This document shows, piece by piece, positions 37,058 to 55,997 of a stretch of 64,000 bases of DNA. Source of the stretch: Pedobacter sp. BS3 (GTDB taxonomy: Bacteria > Bacteroidota > Bacteroidia > Sphingobacteriales > Sphingobacteriaceae); the NCBI RefSeq assembly GCF_008274585.1, contig NZ_VTRT01000008.1, forward strand, positions 62,001 to 126,000, written 5' to 3'. The notes beneath the pieces were generated by a model. It had not been told where the DNA came from. It made no database searches and worked only from the letters and a program-made list of their open reading frames with translations. Position numbers and translations under genes: made by a program. Position 1 is the stretch's first letter. Every line of letters begins with the position of its first letter.

Positions 37058-40000
37058 TTATAATCCCAGGTTAAGTCCGAACGTAAATGTGCGGGCCAAC
37101 GGATAAGCTCCAAAATCCTGCCCCTGGCTTACTGAATTCAGCCCGGAGGAACTCACCTCCGGATTTCCCGGATAACTGGTAAAAATAAATGCGTTTTGTA
37201 CAGTAGCATACAAGCGCAGATTTTTGATGTATGGCATACTACGGAACTTATTAAAGGTATAGCCCAAAGCAATATTATTTATAGTAAGGTGCGATGCATC
37301 GTGTACCCATAAGGTTTGATTGGCACGGTATGCCGCTGTTGTATTTGCAAGCGTCCGCGGAACCCGTCCGTTACCGGGATTTGATTCCGAGCGCCAGCGT
37401 TGTAACAATTCGGGTGGCCCGTTAAACACCCCATCCAGGTTATAGGTACTTTCTTCCATACCGTTATACAGATCGTTGCCGTAAGTACCCGACAGCGTAA
37501 TATTTAAATCAAAGCTTTTATAACGGAAATCATTGCTGAGACCAAAAATAAAATCCGGATTAGGATCGCCGATAACAGTCATATCTTCGGGAAAAGTAAT
37601 TTTATTATCACCGTTCAGGTCTTTATAACGTACCGTACCTGCCCGCGATAATGTTGTTGACGATGCCCCATAATACTTCGGGCCTTTATCTGCTTCGGCC
37701 TGTGTCATAAATACGCCATCAAATACATAACCATAGAACTGGCCAATAGGCTGACCTACCAATGTACGCCAGTCGGTAAATTCACTTAAGGTTGTACCGG
37801 GCCTATCAGCAAACGAAACGTTATTCAGTCCTATCCGCTTCACAATATTCCTGTTAAATGAAATGTTAAAGCCGGTGTTCCATTTAAAATCATGTACTAA
37901 ATTCTTAGTGCTTATAGTAAACTCATGTCCCCATTGCCTGATATCGCCCAGATTATCCTGAACGCTTGAATAGCCGGATGACTGTGGAACCGGAACTGTA
38001 AACAACAGCCCATCGGTAAACTTATTATAATAATCGTACGTAACGTTAATTCTGTTTTTTAACAAACCGATATCTATACCGGCATCAAACTGTTTGTTGC
38101 GCTCCCAGGCCAAATCTGCATTTCCCAGGCTGCTCTGTACTTTTCCGGAAGCCAGACCGTTGCTGAATACGTAGTTGCTATTGGCAATAACGGGTGTTTG
38201 CGTATAATTGCCAATTTCATTCTGCCCGGTCAGTCCGTAGCTGGCCCTCAGTTTTAAAAGACTTACCTGCCGGATATTTTTCATAAAAGGTTCGTCACTG
38301 GCAATCCAACTGGCACCTATAGAAGGAAATGTTCCCCAGCGGTTATTTGCGCCAAAACGTGATGAACCATCACGGCGCAATGAACCTTGAACGAAATATT
38401 TATCTTTATAACTGTAGCTTACCCGCCCTAACACAGACAACATAGACCATGCCTCGGCATAGCTGTTAGAGGTTGTAAAACGTGTAGCCGCGTTTAAATA
38501 ATGGACATTATTGTCCGGAAAATCACGTCCTACGAGTGTGCTCCAATATCGCGTATAACGCTGAGCGGTAAAACCGGCAAGAACTTCCAGCGAATGGTTA
38601 GCAAAACTTTTTTTAAAGCTTAGCAGGTTTTCGTTTAACCAGGTATTACCATTGTCAACTACCGATTCGCCCAGGGCCGAATCATTACCGGGGCCTGGAA
38701 ATTCTACCGGAACATCGTTAAAACCGCCCAGGGCAGTAGAGGGAATAAACCGTTTACGCTGTAGCTGGGCAAGATCAACACTACCCGAAGTTTTAAAGGT
38801 AAAATCTTTCAGGAACTTAATTTCAGAAAATGCGCTTGCCAATAAACGCAGCCGGTTGGCATCATCGCTTACTTCTAACAACTGCCGCAAGGGATTGGCC
38901 CAGGCAAACAGGTTGGTAAATCCCTTAATGCCCAAAGCCAGGGAACCGTCAGGGTTATAGGGCGAGCCCATAGTTGGTATCATGGATGCTGATGCAAAAA
39001 TGGCCCGTTGACCATCTACGTTAAAACTTGAACCCTGCCTGTTATTATGCTCCAGTTGCATGGAGGGCGCTACGTTCACGCCTACTTTAATATTTTTATT
39101 GAGGGTAAAATCACCATTAACACGTAATGAAAATCGCTTATAACCCGTATTGAGCACGATGCCATCCTGGTCAAAATAACCGCCTATTACACTTAGCGCT
39201 GATTTATCAGTAGCTGTTGAGAATGATAAACTATAATTCCGGGTAGCCCCTGTACGGGTTAGCACATCGAACCAGTCTGTACCTGTACCATACTGCTCCG
39301 GATTCTGGTATACGTCAGGAATACCTCCGGTATACCCTTCATATAAGGCCTTATCCTCGTAAAAACCTTTCATATAAGTGGCCAACTGAGTGGCATTCAT
39401 TACCGGCGGCGTAAGCTCTTTCATGAGCGAGGCCATACCGTAATACGAGCTAAAGTCAACTTTGTGCACACCTGCCTTGCCACGTTTGGTAGTAATTATA
39501 ACAACACCATTTGCTGCCCGCGAGCCATACAATGCCGTTGCCGATGCATCTTTCAACACCGAGAAATTTTCAATTTCATCGGGATTAATGTTATTGATGT
39601 TGTCAACAGCACCAATCATAGGTATACCGTCAACCACAAATAAGGGTTGTACACTTGATGTAAATGAAGCGGCTCCGCGGATGCGAAGATCCATACCCTG
39701 CCCCGGGCGGCCGGTAGCCTGGGCCAACTGCACGCCGGGAAGCTTTCCTTCCAGACGTTCTGCAAAAGTCCCGGTAGGCTGATCTGCTATATCTAAAGCT
39801 TTTAAGGTGGCTACAGCACCTACCACCTCTTTTGCTGATTGTGTGCCATAAGCCATTACAACTACCTCATTTAATGCCGTTACAGTTTCTTTTAGTTGCA
39901 CATCAATAGAGGTCTGGCCATTTACGGCTATTTCCTGCGTAGTAAAACCGATATAAGCAAATACCAGCACTCCTGACGCATCGGGTATGGTGATGGCATA

Positions 40001-40498
40001 ATTACCATCATTGTCGGTATTAACAGCAGTAGCTGTGCCTTTTAATCTAACAGTAACGCCCGCAAGAGGCTGGCCCTTGGTATCTGTTACTTTACCCTTT
40101 ACCGTTATCTTACTTATAGCCGGCTTTATCAGCGCATCCGCAGCCTTACGCACAACAATAATATTTTGCACTATGCTGTATGTTACCTGCTGCCCCTCGA
40201 AACATTTTTCGAGCACGTTTTTTAAGTTACTGTTTTTGACATTGAGCGTAACGGGATGGGCATTTTTTATAATATCAGCATCGCACAAGATATCAAAACC
40301 TGTTTGCTTACGTATCGCTGTAAATATTTTTGCAATTTTTGCATTCTTTTCTGATAAGGTAACCTGCTGGGCATATCCCGTAGCATTAACCTGCATTAAG
40401 CCGGCAAGCAGAAAAAATACAACAAGTTTCATGATTAACAATAGTTTATAACCCCTGTAATATTTTCTATTACAAAGCTCATAAGAATAAAATTCCAT
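37058..40498 (-). CDS. SusC/RagA TonB-dependent glycan transporter with STN signalling domain, PUL1
   Basis: An 1146-residue outer-membrane TonB-dependent transporter. In order: N-terminal membrane signal, STN domain (TLSEKNAKIAKIFTAIRK to the NIIVVRKA segment, about residues 45-115), carboxypeptidase-like regulatory domain (GKVTDTKGQPLAGVTV near 133), plug domain with VVVMAYGTQ and the GAASF...PLFVVDGIP segment, then a 22-strand-type barrel ending in TFGLNLGL. The STN domain allows contact with the FecR anti-sigma encoded upstream. MKLVVFF at 40432 is an alternative start that would begin directly with the signal segment. Confidence 0.94.
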   Translation of the reverse strand: MEFYSYELCNRKYYRGYKLLLIMKLVVFFLLAGLMQVNATGYAQQVTLSEKNAKIAKIFTAIRKQTGFDILCDADIIKNAHPVTLNVKNSNLKNVLEKCFEGQQVTYSIVQNIIVVRKAADALIKPAISKITVKGKVTDTKGQPLAGVTVRLKGTATAVNTDNDGNYAITIPDASGVLVFAYIGFTTQEIAVNGQTSIDVQLKETVTALNEVVVMAYGTQSAKEVVGAVATLKALDIADQPTGTFAERLEGKLPGVQLAQATGRPGQGMDLRIRGAASFTSSVQPLFVVDGIPMIGAVDNINNINPDEIENFSVLKDASATALYGSRAANGVVIITTKRGKAGVHKVDFSSYYGMASLMKELTPPVMNATQLATYMKGFYEDKALYEGYTGGIPDVYQNPEQYGTGTDWFDVLTRTGATRNYSLSFSTATDKSALSVIGGYFDQDGIVLNTGYKRFSLRVNGDFTLNKNIKVGVNVAPSMQLEHNNRQGSSFNVDGQRAIFASASMIPTMGSPYNPDGSLALGIKGFTNLFAWANPLRQLLEVSDDANRLRLLASAFSEIKFLKDFTFKTSGSVDLAQLQRKRFIPSTALGGFNDVPVEFPGPGNDSALGESVVDNGNTWLNENLLSFKKSFANHSLEVLAGFTAQRYTRYWSTLVGRDFPDNNVHYLNAATRFTTSNSYAEAWSMLSVLGRVSYSYKDKYFVQGSLRRDGSSRFGANNRWGTFPSIGASWIASDEPFMKNIRQVSLLKLRASYGLTGQNEIGNYTQTPVIANSNYVFSNGLASGKVQSSLGNADLAWERNKQFDAGIDIGLLKNRINVTYDYYNKFTDGLLFTVPVPQSSGYSSVQDNLGDIRQWGHEFTISTKNLVHDFKWNTGFNISFNRNIVKRIGLNNVSFADRPGTTLSEFTDWRTLVGQPIGQFYGYVFDGVFMTQAEADKGPKYYGASSTTLSRAGTVRYKDLNGDNKITFPEDMTVIGDPNPDFIFGLSNDFRYKSFDLNITLSGTYGNDLYNGMEESTYNLDGVFNGPPELLQRWRSESNPGNGRVPRTLANTTAAYRANQTLWVHDASHLTINNIALGYTFNKFRSMPYIKNLRLYATVQNAFIFTSYPGNPEVSSSGLNSVSQGQDFGAYPLARTFTFGLNLGL

Positions 40499-40622
40499 AT
40501 CTTTGAATATTAGGATTGGTTTAATAATTTGTTGTCACTCATTATTGTGTCTGTTAAAAGACAAGACCACCTAACCGCATACAGTGCGGCAATCAGGGGC
40601 GTTCCAACCGCTCCTGATTTTT
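40498..40622 (+). ncRNA. Candidate cis-antisense RNA opposite the susC leader, PUL1
   Basis: On the strand opposite to the PUL genes, TATCTTTG (40498-40505) is an exact TAnnTTTG box overlapping the susC start. About 70 nt later come a hairpin CCGCA-TACAG-TGCGG (40575-40589) and a terminator-like hairpin: an 11-bp stem AATCAGGGGCG / CGCTCCTGATT with one G-U-type pair at 40591-40619, followed by a T tract to 40622. The predicted transcript is about 110 nt. Small RNAs in this position are known in Bacteroides PULs. A good -33 element is not seen. Confidence 0.45.
40591..40622 (+). terminator. Rho-independent-type terminator on the strand opposite to fecR-susC, PUL1
   Basis: An 11-bp stem (AATCAGGGGCG / CGCTCCTGATT), a 7-nt loop and TTTTT form a terminator reading plus-ward. 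The minus strand lacks a T tract after the stem, so it does not look like a terminator for the PUL genes themselves. Confidence 0.6.
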
Positions 40623-40646: not shown

Positions 40647-41888
40647 TTATTTCATAACGATTATCCTCCTTTCCCCGTTATATTGTGTTTCTATTTTAAA
40701 ATGAACAACTCCTGTAAGCTCAAGCATTTTCAATACTTCCGATACATTTTTAAACCGCGATACGGTTCCCCATAAAGCTTTGTCTTTCAAATTATCCTGA
40801 TACACAATTTCTACATTATACCAACGCGATATTTTCCTCATGATGCTTTGTACAGGCTCATTAATAAACATAAAGTAGCCATTCTTCCAGGCCACAGCCT
40901 CTTCTATATTGATATCGTTATTTACTGTTATTGCCGTTGGGCTAACCTGCGATAGTACAGCCTGCTGCCCGGGATGAAGTTTTACTCCGGCATCCAGAAG
41001 AGCAGCGGAATTAGGTTTAGATACCTTTACACTACCTTCTAAAAGGGTGGTTTTTATAACTTCCTCATCGGGATAGGCATTAATGTTAAAGTGTGTGCCT
41101 AATACTTCTACCCGTTGTCCTTCGGCCATCACAATAAACGGCACCCAAGCCTCTCCCCGCCCCGCCAGCCGGCTGGAGAGAGCGTGTTGTTTCCCCCTTT
41201 GAGGGATCAAGGGGGCCTTTGCCACTTCAAAATAACCTTCGCCCGTTAATGTTACCAGTCTCTCATTACCTGAAAATGTGGTAGGATATGTTAACGAAGA
41301 TGCCGCATTTAACCATACCCTGGTGCCATCGGGTAATACAACCTGGTATTGCCCGCCTTGTGGTGTGCTTAATGTATTATATGCCAGTGGTACGGCAGAC
41401 GATGCATCTGCCACATGATATACCAGTTGTCCATCTGCTGTTTTGGTAACCCGGATACCTGATTGCTGTGCAAGCTCCCCATCTTTTACATCAGTGAGGC
41501 TTATTTTGCGACCATCGGCAAGGGTCAGTATCGCTTTATTACCTCCGGGAGCAATATCATTTTTCTGGTTTACCACTAACGGCTGTTTACTGCCCGGATA
41601 TTTCCAGAAATATAAACCAATAGCGCAAACAAGAATAACTGCTGCTGCATATTTCCAGAACCTGCTTATACTAAACACAGGGGCTGTTTTCGCTGGTGCC
41701 GCAATAACTGCCTGCAAGCGATTAAGCATCTTCGCCTCGAGCTCTTCTTTTGTACCAAGTTCCAGCTCATCCCAATCCTGCGTATGCTGAAATGAGTTGA
41801 AATAGTCTGCAAGCCATTGTTCTTCCTGCGGAGTAGCTTGTTTATTAAGATATTTATCGACTAATTTTAAAAATTCCTGCTTTTCCAA
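40647..41888 (-). CDS. FecR family anti-sigma factor with a 23-residue in-frame repeat insertion, PUL1
   Basis: A 413-residue single-pass membrane anti-sigma regulator. The N-terminal cytoplasmic region (FLKLVDKYLNKQATPQEEQWL) binds sigma, a membrane segment follows (FWKYAAAVILVCAIGLYFW near residue 73-91), and the periplasmic FecR domain and C-terminal DUF4974 domain (VQSIMRKISRWYNVEIVY) receive the signal from SusC. Between GYFEVAKA and VPFIVMAEGQRVEV there are 23 extra residues, encoded by 41145-41213, where FecR proteins normally have only a few. The DNA there is GC-rich and palindromic. It is cotranscribed with the sigma gene 59 bp upstream. Confidence 0.9.
   Translation of the reverse strand: MEKQEFLKLVDKYLNKQATPQEEQWLADYFNSFQHTQDWDELELGTKEELEAKMLNRLQAVIAAPAKTAPVFSISRFWKYAAAVILVCAIGLYFWKYPGSKQPLVVNQKNDIAPGGNKAILTLADGRKISLTDVKDGELAQQSGIRVTKTADGQLVYHVADASSAVPLAYNTLSTPQGGQYQVVLPDGTRVWLNAASSLTYPTTFSGNERLVTLTGEGYFEVAKAPLIPQRGKQHALSSRLAGRGEAWVPFIVMAEGQRVEVLGTHFNINAYPDEEVIKTTLLEGSVKVSKPNSAALLDAGVKLHPGQQAVLSQVSPTAITVNNDINIEEAVAWKNGYFMFINEPVQSIMRKISRWYNVEIVYQDNLKDKALWGTVSRFKNVSEVLKMLELTGVVHFKIETQYNGERRIIVMK
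41145..41213. repeat. REP-like palindromic insertion inside fecR
   Basis: 69 nt, a multiple of three, interrupt the FecR coding sequence in frame. The minus strand contains CCCCCTT...AAAGGGGG and CTCTCTCC...GGAGAGGCTT palindromes, similar in style to the elements upstream of murA. The boundaries are set by comparison with the usual FecR motif and could shift by a few bases. Confidence 0.65.
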
Positions 41889-41947: not shown

Positions 41948-42532
41948 TTATTTTTTACTTTGAAAAAGCAGGTTAAGCATTACAATAAGGGTTGGTAGAT
42001 TATTTAAGGATAGCCGAACCTGCTGCAGGGCTTTTGTGAGATGATTTTCTACTGTTTTTGTTGAAATATTTAGCCGGGCGGCAATTTCTTTATGTGATAA
42101 ATGTTCCTCACGGCTTAGCAGGTACACTTCCCGGCATTTGGGCGGTAATTTTTCAATCACCATGTTGATCTGATGCACTAACTCCCGGTGTTCAATATTT
42201 CCATAATCAGGTTGGGTGATCAGTTGCTCTGTTAAACGGTCAAAAATTTCGTCCCGTACTTTACCACTTTTAATTTGCCTGTACACTTCATACCTGACCG
42301 CGGCAAACAGGTAGGCTTTCAGAGATATATTAATGTGTAGCTTATCCCGCTTATCCCAGATCCTGATAAAAAGCTCCTGGATAATATCCTCACAAGCTTG
42401 TTTATCTTTGAGCACATTGTATGCCGCTGTAAACAAGGGGCTCCAATACCTCCGGAAAATTGCTGTTAATGCAGCATCATTGCCCGAGGCAAGAAGTTGT
42501 ATCAGCTCTGAATCGTTTACAGCATTTACCAT
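41948..42532 (-). CDS. ECF-type RNA polymerase sigma factor, PUL1
   Basis: A 194-residue sigma-70 family ECF factor of the Bacteroidetes expansion group that drives PUL transcription. Region 2 is seen at residues about 22-90 (LFTAAYNVLKDKQACEDIIQ, then FIRIWDKRDKLH), and region 4 at about 125-180, ending in the helix-turn-helix HLSHKEIAARLNISTKTVEN. It is the first gene of PUL1, directly upstream of its FecR anti-sigma. Activity is presumably released when SusC binds its glycan. Confidence 0.93.
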   Translation of the reverse strand: MVNAVNDSELIQLLASGNDAALTAIFRRYWSPLFTAAYNVLKDKQACEDIIQELFIRIWDKRDKLHINISLKAYLFAAVRYEVYRQIKSGKVRDEIFDRLTEQLITQPDYGNIEHRELVHQINMVIEKLPPKCREVYLLSREEHLSHKEIAARLNISTKTVENHLTKALQQVRLSLNNLPTLIVMLNLLFQSKK

Positions 42533-50349: not shown

Positions 50350-52119
50350 TTATAAGGTTATACTTACACCAAAAGAATAGACTTTAGATAAGGGATAAAC
50401 GCTCCCGTTCCAGCCGCCGTCAATGGTTTCGGGGTCGAACATGGTTGCGATATTGGATATGGTCCAGACATTTTCGCCGGATACATAAGCCCTGAACTTG
50501 TTAACTCCTAATTTTTTGGTGATGGATTGTGGTATGGTATACCCTACCTGGAGGTTTTTCAACCTGATATACGATGCATCCTGTAAATATTTGGTTTGAA
50601 CCAGCTGATTTTTAGCACTTAATAAAGGGCGTGGATAATAGGCATCCAGGTTTTGACCAAGCGGATGGTTGGGGTCGTCCCGGAAATAATCGGCATGTTC
50701 TTTTAAGCCTGCCGAGCTGTATATGGTGGTAGAAGCTCCCCAGAAGTAAAAGCTGTTATTAAAATAATCGCGTTTCAGCACTCCCTGAAAAAATGCCCGA
50801 AAGTCAAATCCTTTATAATTGGCTCCCAGGTCTAATGAAGCCAGGTACCGTGGCGTGCTGTTGCCGATAAGAACTAAATCGCCATGATCAGTAATGGTAT
50901 TGGCACCGGCATTGATCTTGCCATCGCCATTTACATCCACATACATTAAATCGCCGGCTTTCCAGTTGCTGCCCAAAGCATTCTGACCACCGTTGGGCAA
51001 CGAAGCTAAATGCGCATCCATTTCGGCCTGGGTTTTAGCTATACCAATGGTTTGATATCCCCATATTTCGTTCATCATGTGCCCGGCCAGGTAAGTGCTA
51101 AGGCTTCCCGTTGGGTTAGGATATTTTGTGATCTCGGTTTTAGAATCGGATAATAAGAACCGCACATTGTACCCTAAACCATTATGTAAACGGTCTTGCC
51201 ATGCTACATCCAGCTCAAATCCCGAGGTTTTAAGGCTTGTATTATTCGCTTTAGGTACAGGTGTGCCTAAAATAATCGGTAGCTCTGGCGCCGGGCCGGT
51301 CATATTGTCGGTATAACGGGTAAAGCGCTCAAAGGTAGCGATAAGTCTGCCTCGCAGGAAGCTGGCATCTACACCGATGTTCCAGGTTCTTGCCTGTTCC
51401 CAGGATAAATCGGAAGTAACCAGACCCGGAGCCGATGCCGTATTGGGTTTTGCACCGTTGACCAGCCAACTACCATTAGCGGTTCCGGTAGGCATAGTAC
51501 TGTATGTGGGATACCAGTTATTTGTATTCTGGTTGCTCAACTCCCCATAAGAACCACGTATTTTAAAGGTGTTTACATACTTTTGTAAAGGTTCCCAGAA
51601 AGATTCTTTATCAATATTCCATCCCGCAGATGCTGACGACGAATAGATCCAACGCTTTTCACGACGAAAACGTGATGAACCGTCGTAACGAAGATTGCCT
51701 TCAACTAAATAACGCTCTTTATAATTGTAATTAATCCGACCGAAATAGCCTGCGGTAGACCAATGCTGATTGGATCCGGCAACGCTGGGAGGCACCGCCT
51801 TACCGTTAGGGTCATTACCCGATGTTACATCAATTACCGTAAGCGAGGGAACAATAACACCCTGGCGCTCGGCCATCATATAATGGGTTTTCATTAATTC
51901 GGACTGCATACCAAGCAACACTTTGAAATTATGATTCCTCAATGACCGGGCGTATTCCGTATACAGGTTGGCATTTAGGTAATTATCACGGCTACCTTCT
52001 TCATGCACTTCAGATGCGGTGCTTGCCGGGTACGGATTGCCATTTACATCATGATTATAGGTTCGCTGAAGATCCCAGTGGTAAAATATATCGGTAATGC
52101 TGTAGTTAACATCTCCCAT
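50350..52119 (-). CDS. C-terminal half of the frameshifted SusC, PUL2
   Basis: This 589-residue frame starts at an internal ATG and encodes most of the TonB-dependent beta-barrel (RYLVEGNLRYDGSSRF near residue 135, ending in YSFGVSITL). It has no signal peptide. Upstream in the same frame, the codons before 52119 read RDGGRGNRQTDGISQQLKL, normal SusC sequence, which proves that it was once continuous with the N-terminal half. Confidence 0.85.
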   Translation of the reverse strand: MGDVNYSITDIFYHWDLQRTYNHDVNGNPYPASTASEVHEEGSRDNYLNANLYTEYARSLRNHNFKVLLGMQSELMKTHYMMAERQGVIVPSLTVIDVTSGNDPNGKAVPPSVAGSNQHWSTAGYFGRINYNYKERYLVEGNLRYDGSSRFRREKRWIYSSSASAGWNIDKESFWEPLQKYVNTFKIRGSYGELSNQNTNNWYPTYSTMPTGTANGSWLVNGAKPNTASAPGLVTSDLSWEQARTWNIGVDASFLRGRLIATFERFTRYTDNMTGPAPELPIILGTPVPKANNTSLKTSGFELDVAWQDRLHNGLGYNVRFLLSDSKTEITKYPNPTGSLSTYLAGHMMNEIWGYQTIGIAKTQAEMDAHLASLPNGGQNALGSNWKAGDLMYVDVNGDGKINAGANTITDHGDLVLIGNSTPRYLASLDLGANYKGFDFRAFFQGVLKRDYFNNSFYFWGASTTIYSSAGLKEHADYFRDDPNHPLGQNLDAYYPRPLLSAKNQLVQTKYLQDASYIRLKNLQVGYTIPQSITKKLGVNKFRAYVSGENVWTISNIATMFDPETIDGGWNGSVYPLSKVYSFGVSITL

Positions 52120-52148
52120 CAGTTTCCACCCTTTTACAGGCTCAACAG

Positions 52149-53906
52149 TTAGTTTAAGCTGCTGGGAAATTCCATCGGTTTGCCTGTTACCCCGCCCGCC
52201 ATCTCTCTGAGACCGAGGGCCGGGGATGGCTCATCATATAAATAGCCGTTATTATCATACAGCGGCAATACGGGCCATCCCTGCCGGGCAATGTTTTGAT
52301 TAAGCGTATTCGTCATCCGGCTGGGCCGGGCAAATTCTTCGCGGCTAAACCTGCCGATATAGGTTAACGATGCTTTCTTTGATAATTTACCGTCAATGTT
52401 AGCTGATGTATTATACCGTTTAAAATTGTCGCCGCCAAACCGCATTAAACCGGTCTGGCCCAGGTAACTGCCTGCTACATAATAGGTAACATTTTCATTT
52501 CCACCACTGGCGTTCACCGAATATTCCTGCGAAGGTGTCTTTGTTTTGTATATGGCCCTGTACCAGTCTATATTATCATTACCTTCAAAATAGCCATCGG
52601 CCCAAATATTTTCCTGGCCGGCACGCGGAATAATGGTAGTAGTTATTTTACCATCCATATAATCTTTAATACGCTGCATCCGCACGTCGGTAAAATATAC
52701 CCCCTGCCCTGAATTGAGCCTTGCATCATTAAAATAGGTGGCAAAGGTGTATGAATCCATCATTCTGGGGAGCAAAACGGGACTGTTTGAACGAAAATTA
52801 GCATTTGCACCGATCAACGGTTTGCCGGGTTTCCCCCTTTTCGTGGTAACCAGGATAACGCCAAACGGCGCCCGAGAACCGTATATAGACGAAGCTGACG
52901 CATCTTTGAGCACAGAAATATTATCAATATCCTGCGGGCTGACAGCATTAATATCGCCTTCCATACCGTCTATTAAAATAAGCGGGCCACCTTGAGATCC
53001 TGCTCCGATTGTTCCAACGCCGCGAATATTAATACTGGGCCTGTTCTCTAAACTGCCGGCCAATGCGCCGCTCTGGGTAATGTTCAACCCCGGAGCCATA
53101 CCTTGCAGCGCCTGTGCAACGTTAGATACCGGGCGTGAGTCTAACGCTTCAGAATTTATGGTTGATACAGCTCCCGTCAGGTTCACTTTTTTCTGTGTAC
53201 CATATCCTACCACAACAACCTCGTTCAGCGCCTTCTGATCGGCTTCCAGCATTACGTTGATCTGGCCGCGGTTATTAACGGGCACTTCAAGAATTTTATA
53301 TCCGATATACGAGAAAATAAGCACGGCATCGTCTGAAACATTGGTTATGGTTAGCGAATAGCGCCCATCTTTATCGGTAGAAGTGCCTGTATTGGTTCCT
53401 TTTATGGTGACGCTTACACCGGGCAACGGCTCTCCTGTTTTGTTATCGGTTACCGTTCCACTGATTTGCAACTGCCTTAAATTGAGATCGGTACGAAGCT
53501 GAATATCGGGCGTATTAAAATCAAATCCTGAAGTTTTAAGCAGTTCCTGCCTGCCCGGGGCCTGTGTTACTGTTATTGTATTATTTAGAATTTTAAATGC
53601 CAGGTTCATTTCTGAAACCAGCTTTTTTAAAATACTCTCCACCGTATTGTCTTGTCCGGCAATGCGTATATTCCGGTCGGTGTCTACTTTCCGGGCATCG
53701 TAAACAAATCTAAAAGTGGTTTCTTTTTCAATGATCTTAAAAACCTGCCGTACAGATTTTGTCTCCAGGTTTTGATGAATAACAGCGTTCATCTGGGCGC
53801 TGGCGCTGTATCCAAGTAACACATTATAGGTAAATAACTGGATCAGCAAAACGATTAACATTAGTCGCGATGACATAATGAGAAGTTTTAATAAACTTTT
53901 TTTCAT
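52149..53906 (-). CDS. N-terminal half of the frameshifted SusC, PUL2
   Basis: This 585-residue frame contains a signal segment, an STN domain (NLETKSVRQVFKIIEKETTF to the NNTITVTQ segment), a carboxypeptidase-like regulatory domain (SGTVTDNKTGEPLPGVSV near residue 149) and the plug (EVVVVGYGTQKKVNLTGAV, GGPLILIDGMEGD). It ends prematurely soon after PSPALGLRE by frameshift. The STN and plug could still reach the periplasm, but no barrel can form. Confidence 0.85.
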   Translation of the reverse strand: MKKSLLKLLIMSSRLMLIVLLIQLFTYNVLLGYSASAQMNAVIHQNLETKSVRQVFKIIEKETTFRFVYDARKVDTDRNIRIAGQDNTVESILKKLVSEMNLAFKILNNTITVTQAPGRQELLKTSGFDFNTPDIQLRTDLNLRQLQISGTVTDNKTGEPLPGVSVTIKGTNTGTSTDKDGRYSLTITNVSDDAVLIFSYIGYKILEVPVNNRGQINVMLEADQKALNEVVVVGYGTQKKVNLTGAVSTINSEALDSRPVSNVAQALQGMAPGLNITQSGALAGSLENRPSINIRGVGTIGAGSQGGPLILIDGMEGDINAVSPQDIDNISVLKDASASSIYGSRAPFGVILVTTKRGKPGKPLIGANANFRSNSPVLLPRMMDSYTFATYFNDARLNSGQGVYFTDVRMQRIKDYMDGKITTTIIPRAGQENIWADGYFEGNDNIDWYRAIYKTKTPSQEYSVNASGGNENVTYYVAGSYLGQTGLMRFGGDNFKRYNTSANIDGKLSKKASLTYIGRFSREEFARPSRMTNTLNQNIARQGWPVLPLYDNNGYLYDEPSPALGLREMAGGVTGKPMEFPSSLN

Positions 53907-54028
53907 AATTTTATGAATTGGTTAGAGTGATACGTCAGCAGCATGAGCGACCAAACTTATACCGCACTGACGTGTTAAAATTTTACCATAAATTGAGCCG
54001 GAGGCCCGTCATAGCTTCCGGCCTTTTT
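53906..54028 (+). ncRNA. Candidate cis-antisense RNA opposite the susC leader, PUL2
   Basis: The arrangement is that of PUL1. A promoter-like box TAATTTTA (53906-53913, one change from TAnnTTTG) overlaps the susC start. A hairpin ACGTCAG (53932-53938) / CTGACGT (53967-53973) follows. Then comes a terminator GCCGGAGGC / GCTTCCGGC (53997-54022) with T tract to 54028, all on the strand opposite to the PUL. The expected size is about 110 nt. Sequence similarity to PUL1 is low; only the layout is shared. Confidence 0.4.
53997..54028 (+). terminator. Rho-independent-type terminator opposite to fecR-susC, PUL2
   Basis: A 9-bp stem GCCGGAGGC / GCTTCCGGC (one G-U-type pair), an 8-nt loop and TTTTT read plus-ward. 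The orientation is the same as for the PUL1 hairpin, antisense to the operon. Confidence 0.6.
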
Positions 54029-55903: not shown

Positions 55904-55997
55904 TATATTTGTATCGTTAAAGGATTCCCCCTTTAATATTTAGGTTTATAATTGGTTAGTTTGAAAGCTCCTGCCCATCAGGAGCTTTTACTTTTTT
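55904..55997 (+). ncRNA. Candidate stand-alone small RNA of about 75 nt
   Basis: TATATTTG (55904-55911) is an exact TAnnTTTG box. At the expected start a hairpin begins: TTAAAGG (55917-55923) / CCTTTAA (55930-55936), loop ATTCCC. A U-rich linker leads to a terminator, stem AAAGCTCCTG / CAGGAGCTTT (55964-55988), loop CCCAT, followed by a T-rich tail to 55997. A separate TACCTTTG box for the methyltransferase follows at 55999-56006. No ORF fits inside and no known RNA family was recognised. Confidence 0.55.
55964..55997 (+). terminator. Rho-independent terminator of the candidate small RNA
   Basis: A perfect 10-bp stem with a 5-nt loop and a T-rich tail containing TTTTTT. It lies upstream of the methyltransferase start, so the longer reading frame that begins at 55952 is unlikely to be used. 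Confidence 0.85.

Follow-up and report, generated by a model that had tools for sequence, protein, structure and literature searches.

The spacer between a fecR and a susC gene of Pedobacter sp. BS3 probably carries, on the strand opposite to the operon, a gene for a DonS-type antisense RNA acting in cis. It would be one member of a family that is represented in most FecR-to-susC spacers that we examined. An antisense transcription unit had been predicted at this place in a first-pass annotation of the window (the whole stretch of 64,000 nucleotides analysed here). Comparison gave this prediction strong support: the promoter box and the terminator recur, and the structure of the predicted RNA is strand-specific.

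Elements of the predicted antisense unit in the window

The elements of the unit and the neighbouring genes are listed in Table 1. The exact TAnnTTTG box that had been claimed over the susC start was found there, and it is followed by the claimed hairpin and the 11-bp terminator hairpin with its T tract, small hairpins lying in between. The idea of an antisense RNA over the susC leader held with one correction and one gap. It is the box that lies on the start codon, whereas the predicted RNA starts about 5 nt past this codon and thus covers the leader only. In addition, no TTTG or TTG was present 19-21 nt 5' of the box, so the window copy is without a -33 element.

Table 1. Predicted elements of the antisense units and adjacent genes (positions in the window).
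Feature	Position	Strand	Remarks
Exact TAnnTTTG box, TATCTTTG	40498-40505	+	-7 box of the Bacteroidota primary sigma factor; over the susC ATG of the opposite strand
Predicted antisense RNA, ~111-113 nt	~40510-40622	+	Complementary to the susC leader; 5' end placed ~5 nt past the box
Closed 5' domain	40510-40574	+	UUAGG (40510-40514) pairs with CCUAA (40570-40574), inner hairpins enclosed; MFE fold
Small hairpin, CCGCA-TACAG-TGCGG	40575-40589	+	Similar hairpin in Pedobacter sp. ok626 (L068)
Intrinsic terminator	40591-40622	+	11-bp stem 40591-40601/40609-40619; T tract 40618-40622
susC homologue, TonB-dependent transducer	37058-40498	-	STN, carboxypeptidase-regulatory-like and plug domains
FecR-type anti-sigma factor	40647-41888	-	FecR and FecR_C domains
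ECF sigma factor	41948-42532	-	Domain match
Second antisense unit, other FecR-susC junction (L063)	53906-54027	+	TAATTTTA, box one letter off; antisense terminator d = 14

The terminator stem of the window copy, AATCAGGGGCG-TTCCAAC-CGCTCCTGATT (40591-40619), consists of 11 pairs, one of which reads G-U in a + strand RNA and A-C in a - strand RNA. Its T tract is short (five T's), its score is modest (d = 6 in the antisense versus -21 in the sense direction), and this terminator was absent from the output of a simple terminator scan of the window. The z-score of the RNA body differed little between the strands (-2.5 on the + strand versus -2.1 on the - strand); the end-pairing of the RNA reached 9.9 versus 2.7 in shuffles.

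At the other FecR-susC junction of the window, where a FecR and sigma pair likewise precedes susC, the susC gene (50350-53906, -) is interrupted by a frameshift that is either real or derived from the assembly; its two ORFs (52149-53906 and 50350-52119) lie in different frames. The predicted antisense unit is found at this junction even though its susC is split.

A single copy alone would be weak evidence. Boxes of the form TAnnTTTR were accompanied by a terminator at sRNA distance in 10 of 911 cases within 400 kb of the same genome and in 5 of 133 cases within the whole window. Two of these five window units are the FecR-susC junctions (40498 and 53906); the other three, at 55904 (+), 18079 (+) and 27924 (-), are located away from such junctions. 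The observation goes beyond chance because box and terminator repeat at homologous places.

Recurrence within the Pedobacter sp. BS3 genome

Among 26 FecR-to-susC spacers of this genome (60-400 nt), the exact box was present over the susC start in 21 and missing in 5, and an antisense intrinsic terminator (d > 0) was detected in 20, the remaining 6 having none above the threshold. Sense terminators were found in none of the 26. By comparison, the box occurred at 0 of 264 ordinary gene starts of the same genome (Fisher's test, 1e-27), and co-directional control spacers contained an antisense terminator in 1 and a sense terminator in 3 of 45 cases (2e-11 for the antisense terminator). The box was scored as its complement, CAAANNTA, within -12 to +2 of the ATG, and the control starts were the first ATGs of ORFs of at least 150 codons. 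The terminator score followed a d'Aubenton Carafa-type formula, with one threshold for cases and controls.

The set was drawn from 30 loci and 20 regions among 111 susC-like places. Ten spacers were picked by reading the upstream protein tails; the other sixteen were admitted by a fixed rule that required an upstream ORF and a spacer length of 60-400 nt. Each of the 26 follows a FecR_C match, and 38 such matches are listed for the genome, some inside susC itself. Outside this count are L057 (FecR, spacer of 19 nt), L062 (26 nt), L064 and L065, together with FecR_C places that include C1:523440, C1:622070 and C3:10809. Since some copies are alike (e.g., L046 and L055), the 26 are not fully independent. 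Nevertheless, the FecR-linked SusC proteins of the genome share 28-42% identity with the window SusC, which implies that recent copying of the window locus does not by itself account for the signals they have in common.

Relative to the ATG, the box was in register -7 in 12 loci, -3 in eight and -8 in one; in the -3 register it extends into the second codon, which encodes Tyr in 8 of 8 cases. The maintenance of the box in differing registers marks it as a DNA signal that is independent of translation. The predicted length of the RNA was 78-128 nt in 21 of 22 copies, and TTTG or TTTA at spacing 19 from the box was present in 7 of the 23 copies of this genome and in 7 of the 33 from relatives.

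Three other identities of the element were rejected. A repeat element (REP or MITE) was dismissed as the genome holds no second full copy of the window spacer: the next best match (90% over 29 bases) was the homologous hairpin, a piece of another fecR-susC spacer. Plasmid copies of the element gave no match at E <= 1e-5. As for a small protein encoded in the RNA, a closed ORF of at least 10 codons, counting ATG starts and leaving GTG and TTG outside, was present in 2 of 23 own RNAs and not in the window copy.

Recurrence in relatives and across the phylum

Relatives identified by their susC belonged to Chitinophaga, Pedobacter, Mucilaginibacter, Niastella and others. Of 79 loci, 73 gave a start and 43 were FecR-linked (phmmer, E < 1e-5), 41 of them with a spacer in range. 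These 41 contained the box in 32 cases, an antisense terminator in 34 and a sense terminator in none. In relatives with a susC lacking the FecR link, the box and the antisense terminator were each found in 2 of 30 and a sense terminator in 7 of 30. The 41 relatives hold near-duplicates; 33 copies with a box remained after the removal of identical ends, and 36 spacers entered the closing-helix test described below.

In the 19 closest loci (susC 52-70% identical) the exact box and the antisense terminator were each present in 18, the exception being L075 with neither a box nor a terminator above the threshold. It had been put forward that the antisense RNA would be refuted if orthologous PULs did not conserve the hairpin with its T tract; both are kept, the terminator scoring above the threshold in 18 of the 19 loci. 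When the window was aligned with 13 of them, the stem was paired in 99.2% of cells, with compensatory changes.

The box could also be read as a conserved translation-start or N-terminal coding signal over the ATG, with the hairpins unrelated to it; A-rich starts are common in Bacteroidota. We consider this extremely improbable, since none of the ordinary starts carried the box, its register to the ATG differs between loci, and the susC genes without a FecR link are mostly boxless.

A comparison of fecR-susC spacers across related genomes had been suggested as a check of the antisense RNA, and box and antisense terminator indeed recurred in several lineages. Further spacers were entered through FecR_C; these regions are high-scoring matches among those listed, not random ones, and in the counts for Pedobacter sp. 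ok626, Prolixibacteraceae, Arenibacter and Bacteroidaceae the box was allowed to end in G or A. In Pedobacter sp. ok626 (20 high-scoring matches out of 123, 3 of the 20 loci being excluded for spacers of -1, 1 and 67 nt) the box was present in 14 of 17 spacers, the antisense terminator in 12 and a sense terminator in none, which leaves 3 without the box and 5 without the terminator; three loci of this genome seen earlier were all positive. One Prolixibacteraceae MAG (20 of 108 matches) had the box in 16, the antisense terminator in 17 and a sense terminator in 0 of 18 spacers, and Arenibacter (12 of 20 matches) had them in 10, 9 and 0 of 11, respectively. The only locus of a Cytophagales MAG was negative (0/1). 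In the set that covered Prolixibacteraceae, Arenibacter, the Cytophagales MAG and the first Bacteroidaceae sample, L254 and L311 were without a next ORF, and L244 and L269 were not entered.

The fecR-susC spacers of the Bacteroidaceae sample were mostly short. Its nine usable spacers yielded two boxes (both at -12), no antisense terminator and two sense terminators. In a second Bacteroidaceae set (20 regions of FecR-rich members, one without a next ORF) most spacers were below 80 nt, too short for the element; among the longer ones, L328 had a box with a terminator score of d = -21 and L334 a terminator (d = 21) and no box. No full copy was found at the fecR-susC place in the Bacteroidaceae samples. 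Of 69 loci in a sample spread over the phylum, 3 had no next ORF and 29 could be used; among these 29, the box with a G or A end was present in 15 spacers (exact in 9) and absent from 14, the antisense terminator was likewise present in 15 and absent from 14, and one sense terminator was found; nearly all positives lay in genomes of the same family or class. Judged by these sequence signs, the pattern recurs in Pedobacter, in one Prolixibacteraceae genome and in one Arenibacter genome, and is rare at this place in the sampled Bacteroidaceae.

Strand of the predicted RNA and its conserved fold

T tracts, wobble pairs and a conserved fold all indicate that the RNA would come from the antisense strand. 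T tracts scored on the antisense strand only, both in the own and in the susC-found FecR-linked spacers. Among stems picked without strand preference, G-U pairs favoured the antisense strand by 26 versus 4 in the own genome (the stem picked in L019 and L051 differing from the terminator stem) and by 34 versus 2 in the relatives, which are not independent of each other.

Fourteen Chitinophaga orthologs were aligned without structure (A2) and folded by RNAalifold. In the resulting fold, helix P1 pairs the 5' end of the RNA (GUUUGAG) with CUCAAAC just before the terminator; this helix shows compensatory changes and is the counterpart of the one that closes the 5' domain of the window copy. The fold also comprises an enclosed helix P2 and then the terminator. 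A 4-pair hairpin drawn over the promoter box, outside the RNA, was left out of the counts. The 24 pairs were formed in 99.1% of cells, six of them with changes on both sides, and this degree of pairing and two-sided change was matched by 0 of 500 shuffles; the number of further pair types was not above shuffles (212/500). On the antisense strand there were 46 G-U cells versus 0 A-C cells, 14 of the 46 belonging to one invariant pair.

On the antisense strand, the RNA body without the terminator also folded better than shuffles, and better than on the sense strand, with mean z-scores of -2.12 versus -0.81 in the own copies (n = 22), -1.93 versus -0.70 in relatives (n = 31), -2.78 versus -1.33 in Prolixibacteraceae (n = 15), -2.71 versus -0.93 in Arenibacter (n = 9) and -1.59 versus -0.39 in Pedobacter sp. 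ok626 (n = 11). Pairing of the 5' end with the last 30 nt of the body exceeded that of shuffles in 19 of the 21 own copies measured, the exceptions being L023 and L059, and in Arenibacter the end-pairing was not above chance (p 0.62).

These data bear on the alternative that the hairpin region acts in the sense RNA as a structured susC leader, an attenuator or a terminator of the sigma-fecR operon. The - strand of the window does fold as a three-way junction with a closing stem of 9 pairs that includes two G-U pairs, and a closing helix around the hairpin was somewhat more frequent than expected by chance: 7 of the 25 own spacers and 8 of the 36 from relatives reached p <= 0.05. However, the absence of sense terminators from the 26 own and 41 relative spacers led us to reject the sigma-fecR terminator, the wobble pairs of the hairpin favour the antisense strand (26 versus 4), the body on average folds less well on the sense strand, and the G-U bias of the closing helix was not significant (7 versus 1, p 0.07, in own spacers; 7 versus 9 in relatives). 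Action in the sense RNA instead of an antisense RNA is thus very unlikely in our view, and a sense structure may coexist alongside the antisense RNA. One arm of the closing helix (L016, L068, L081 and others) lies past the T tract of the antisense RNA, and this helix could therefore form only in the sense RNA or in an antisense RNA that reads through the terminator. Inspection of the Chitinophaga spacers by eye for a sense sigma promoter revealed no motif at constant spacing.

The same sequence signs would be expected if the antisense promoter and terminator were real and their product irrelevant, collision or occlusion holding susC down and the terminator only protecting fecR. Indeed, the terminator lies within the spacer, in the cases read often ~20-60 nt from the fecR stop and farther in some. 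We regard such convergent transcription without a functional product as unlikely: apart from the terminator, the body retains a fold that is specific to one strand and supported by compensatory changes, and passive transcription would have no need of such a fold. The retention of a fold beyond the terminator favours an active antisense RNA.

Motifs in the fecR tails and susC leaders

At the very end of the window fecR (40653-40672, -), AAAGGAGG is followed by ATG AAA TAA. In 10 of 26 own loci, AAGGAGG lies about 21 nt before the fecR stop and precedes an ATG whose frame closes after two or three codons. AGGAGG was present in 11 of 26 own fecR tails versus 1 of 264 ordinary gene tails, and upstream of 1 of 264 starts in this genome; Bacteroidota rarely use Shine-Dalgarno sequences. 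The Shine-Dalgarno-like signal was found in the fecR tails of all 14 Chitinophaga orthologs and of 11 of 17 Pedobacter sp. ok626 loci, and was absent from the 18 Prolixibacteraceae and 11 Arenibacter loci. The reading frame in which the signal stands is not the same at all loci, and AGG accounts for a minority of Arg codons, 46 of 382 in eleven ORFs of the window. This signal may sit at the head of the susC leader and could represent a leader mini-ORF or a stabiliser of the mRNA 5' end.

A second motif, AACC(A/C/T)A, stood shortly before the start in 17 of 26 FecR-linked susC genes, 6 of 17 other susC genes and 18 of 264 ordinary genes. In the window it is located at 40516-40521 (-), its complement lying near the start of the antisense RNA.

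Comparison with known RNA systems

DonS and other PUL-associated cis-antisense RNAs of Bacteroides were reportedly described by Cao and colleagues in 2016. In the accessible text of PMC7366714, the DonS family measures 78-128 nt, the primary-sigma promoter of Bacteroidota consists of a -7 TAnnTTTG and a -33 TTTG, and no -33 motif was identifiable in Flavobacterium johnsoniae. According to the accessible parts of the respective sources, 32 PUL-associated antisense RNAs are annotated in B. thetaiotaomicron, with mixed correlation with their PULs (PMC10994844, PMC7366714), many small RNAs of this species have a primary-sigma box and a terminator (PMC7366714, PMC10994844, PMC11697453), and DonS represses its PUL by a mechanism given as unknown (PMC11697453).

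The DonS-type layout proposed in the first-pass annotation agrees in size, orientation, -7 box and terminator with the part of the published description available to us. The window copy shares the antisense position at the susC 5' region, the predicted length and the terminator, the last with a modest score; of the primary-sigma promoter it has the exact -7 box and lacks the -33 TTTG. The predicted family as a whole resembles DonS in being antisense to the susC 5' region, in a predicted length within 78-128 nt and in its many copies per genome. It differs in that the copies are tied to FecR-to-susC spacers and were found mainly outside the Bacteroidaceae, and in the box on the start codon and the conserved fold with a closed 5' end, DonS being compared by description only.

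FopS and GibS of B. thetaiotaomicron are likewise multicopy small RNAs with a 5' part and a terminator hairpin, and FopS represses susC translation (PMC11697453, accessible text). The same text has FopS and GibS acting in trans via a single-stranded 5' seed, whereas the 5' end is predicted to be paired here and each RNA fits its own leader. A search of Rfam 15 returned no family match at E <= 5; the FopS structure is deposited in Rfam, and release 15 may lack it. A common trans-acting seed was rejected, as the median duplex energy was -9.5 with susC genes without FecR versus -9.4 with ordinary genes (p 0.21). Pairing to the leaders of susC without FecR was slightly better than to shuffled leaders (-8.9, p 4e-4), and pairing to other FecR-linked susC leaders reached -10.3 (p 5e-10), a difference that may be due to the leader motif they share.

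CopA/RNA I-type antisense RNAs, known from plasmid copy-number control, are constitutive, folded and complementary to a folded leader. The predicted RNAs are similar in that loop contacts could start the pairing; kissing is only a possibility here. The transcriptome of Flavobacterium psychrophilum contains many antisense RNAs, and the accessible part of that paper names no FecR-susC class (PMC9723704). For Chitinophaga and Pedobacter, our search of the open-access literature returned no report of RNAs of this sort. The RNA is probably of a known kind, that of the PUL antisense RNAs of Bacteroides, with a family-wide fold that may be a variant.

Proposed mode of action and significance

We propose that transcription from the primary-sigma -7 box, which overlies the susC start codon in antisense orientation, would be stopped before fecR by the antisense intrinsic terminator located ~70-130 nt downstream, giving an RNA whose own 5' end is predicted to pair back to the segment before the terminator. 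Since the box is of the primary-sigma type, RNA polymerase with the primary sigma factor would make this RNA in the uninduced state, and it would be fully complementary to the susC leader. In PUL24 of B. thetaiotaomicron, a susC 5' end was mapped 291 nt upstream, to a point within the last part of the anti-sigma gene, and the authors suggest an ECF sigma start (PMC11501099, accessible part). If the susC 5' end is placed as in PUL24, the whole spacer would be in the leader and the antisense RNA would complement a long folded part of it.

Pairing with the leader would keep leaky susC expression low, with convergent transcription assisting it or taking its place. Upon substrate binding, the ECF sigma factor would be freed, and strong sense transcription over the antisense promoter would outnumber the antisense RNA, resulting in a sharper off/on switch. 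As far as the sequences can tell, pairing with the susC leader would be the most likely action, with transcriptional interference as its main rival, and the RNA would probably serve as a brake that holds the importer off until its sugar is present. Some PUL antisense RNAs of B. thetaiotaomicron correlate positively with their own PUL (PMC10994844, accessible part), so repression is not safely inferred from the layout.

We tentatively suggest a stronger reading, in which these RNAs would form an uncatalogued structured family with a shared architecture (5' end paired back before the terminator, an enclosed hairpin and a terminator with G-U pairs). Most FecR-controlled TonB transducers whose spacer is of sufficient length would have such an RNA, and the fold itself, rather than transcription as such, would act by loop contact with the complementary folded susC leader. 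Equally tentative, and jointly with that reading, the family could reach across Sphingobacteriales, Chitinophagales, some Flavobacteriales and non-Bacteroidaceae Bacteroidales, with some twenty or more members per genome. If this is true, each sugar importer would have a private RNA lock besides the sigma/anti-sigma lock.

Antisense control of polysaccharide loci has already been described for Bacteroides; our data suggest that FecR-controlled importers of other Bacteroidota lineages regularly include an RNA of this sort. The fold with its compensatory changes makes helix-by-helix mutation possible, and with the promoter box fixed over the start codon and a fold that can be mutated, RNA pairing versus transcriptional interference becomes directly testable. 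If the RNAs are made, about twenty or more small RNAs per genome would be invisible to protein-gene annotation alone.
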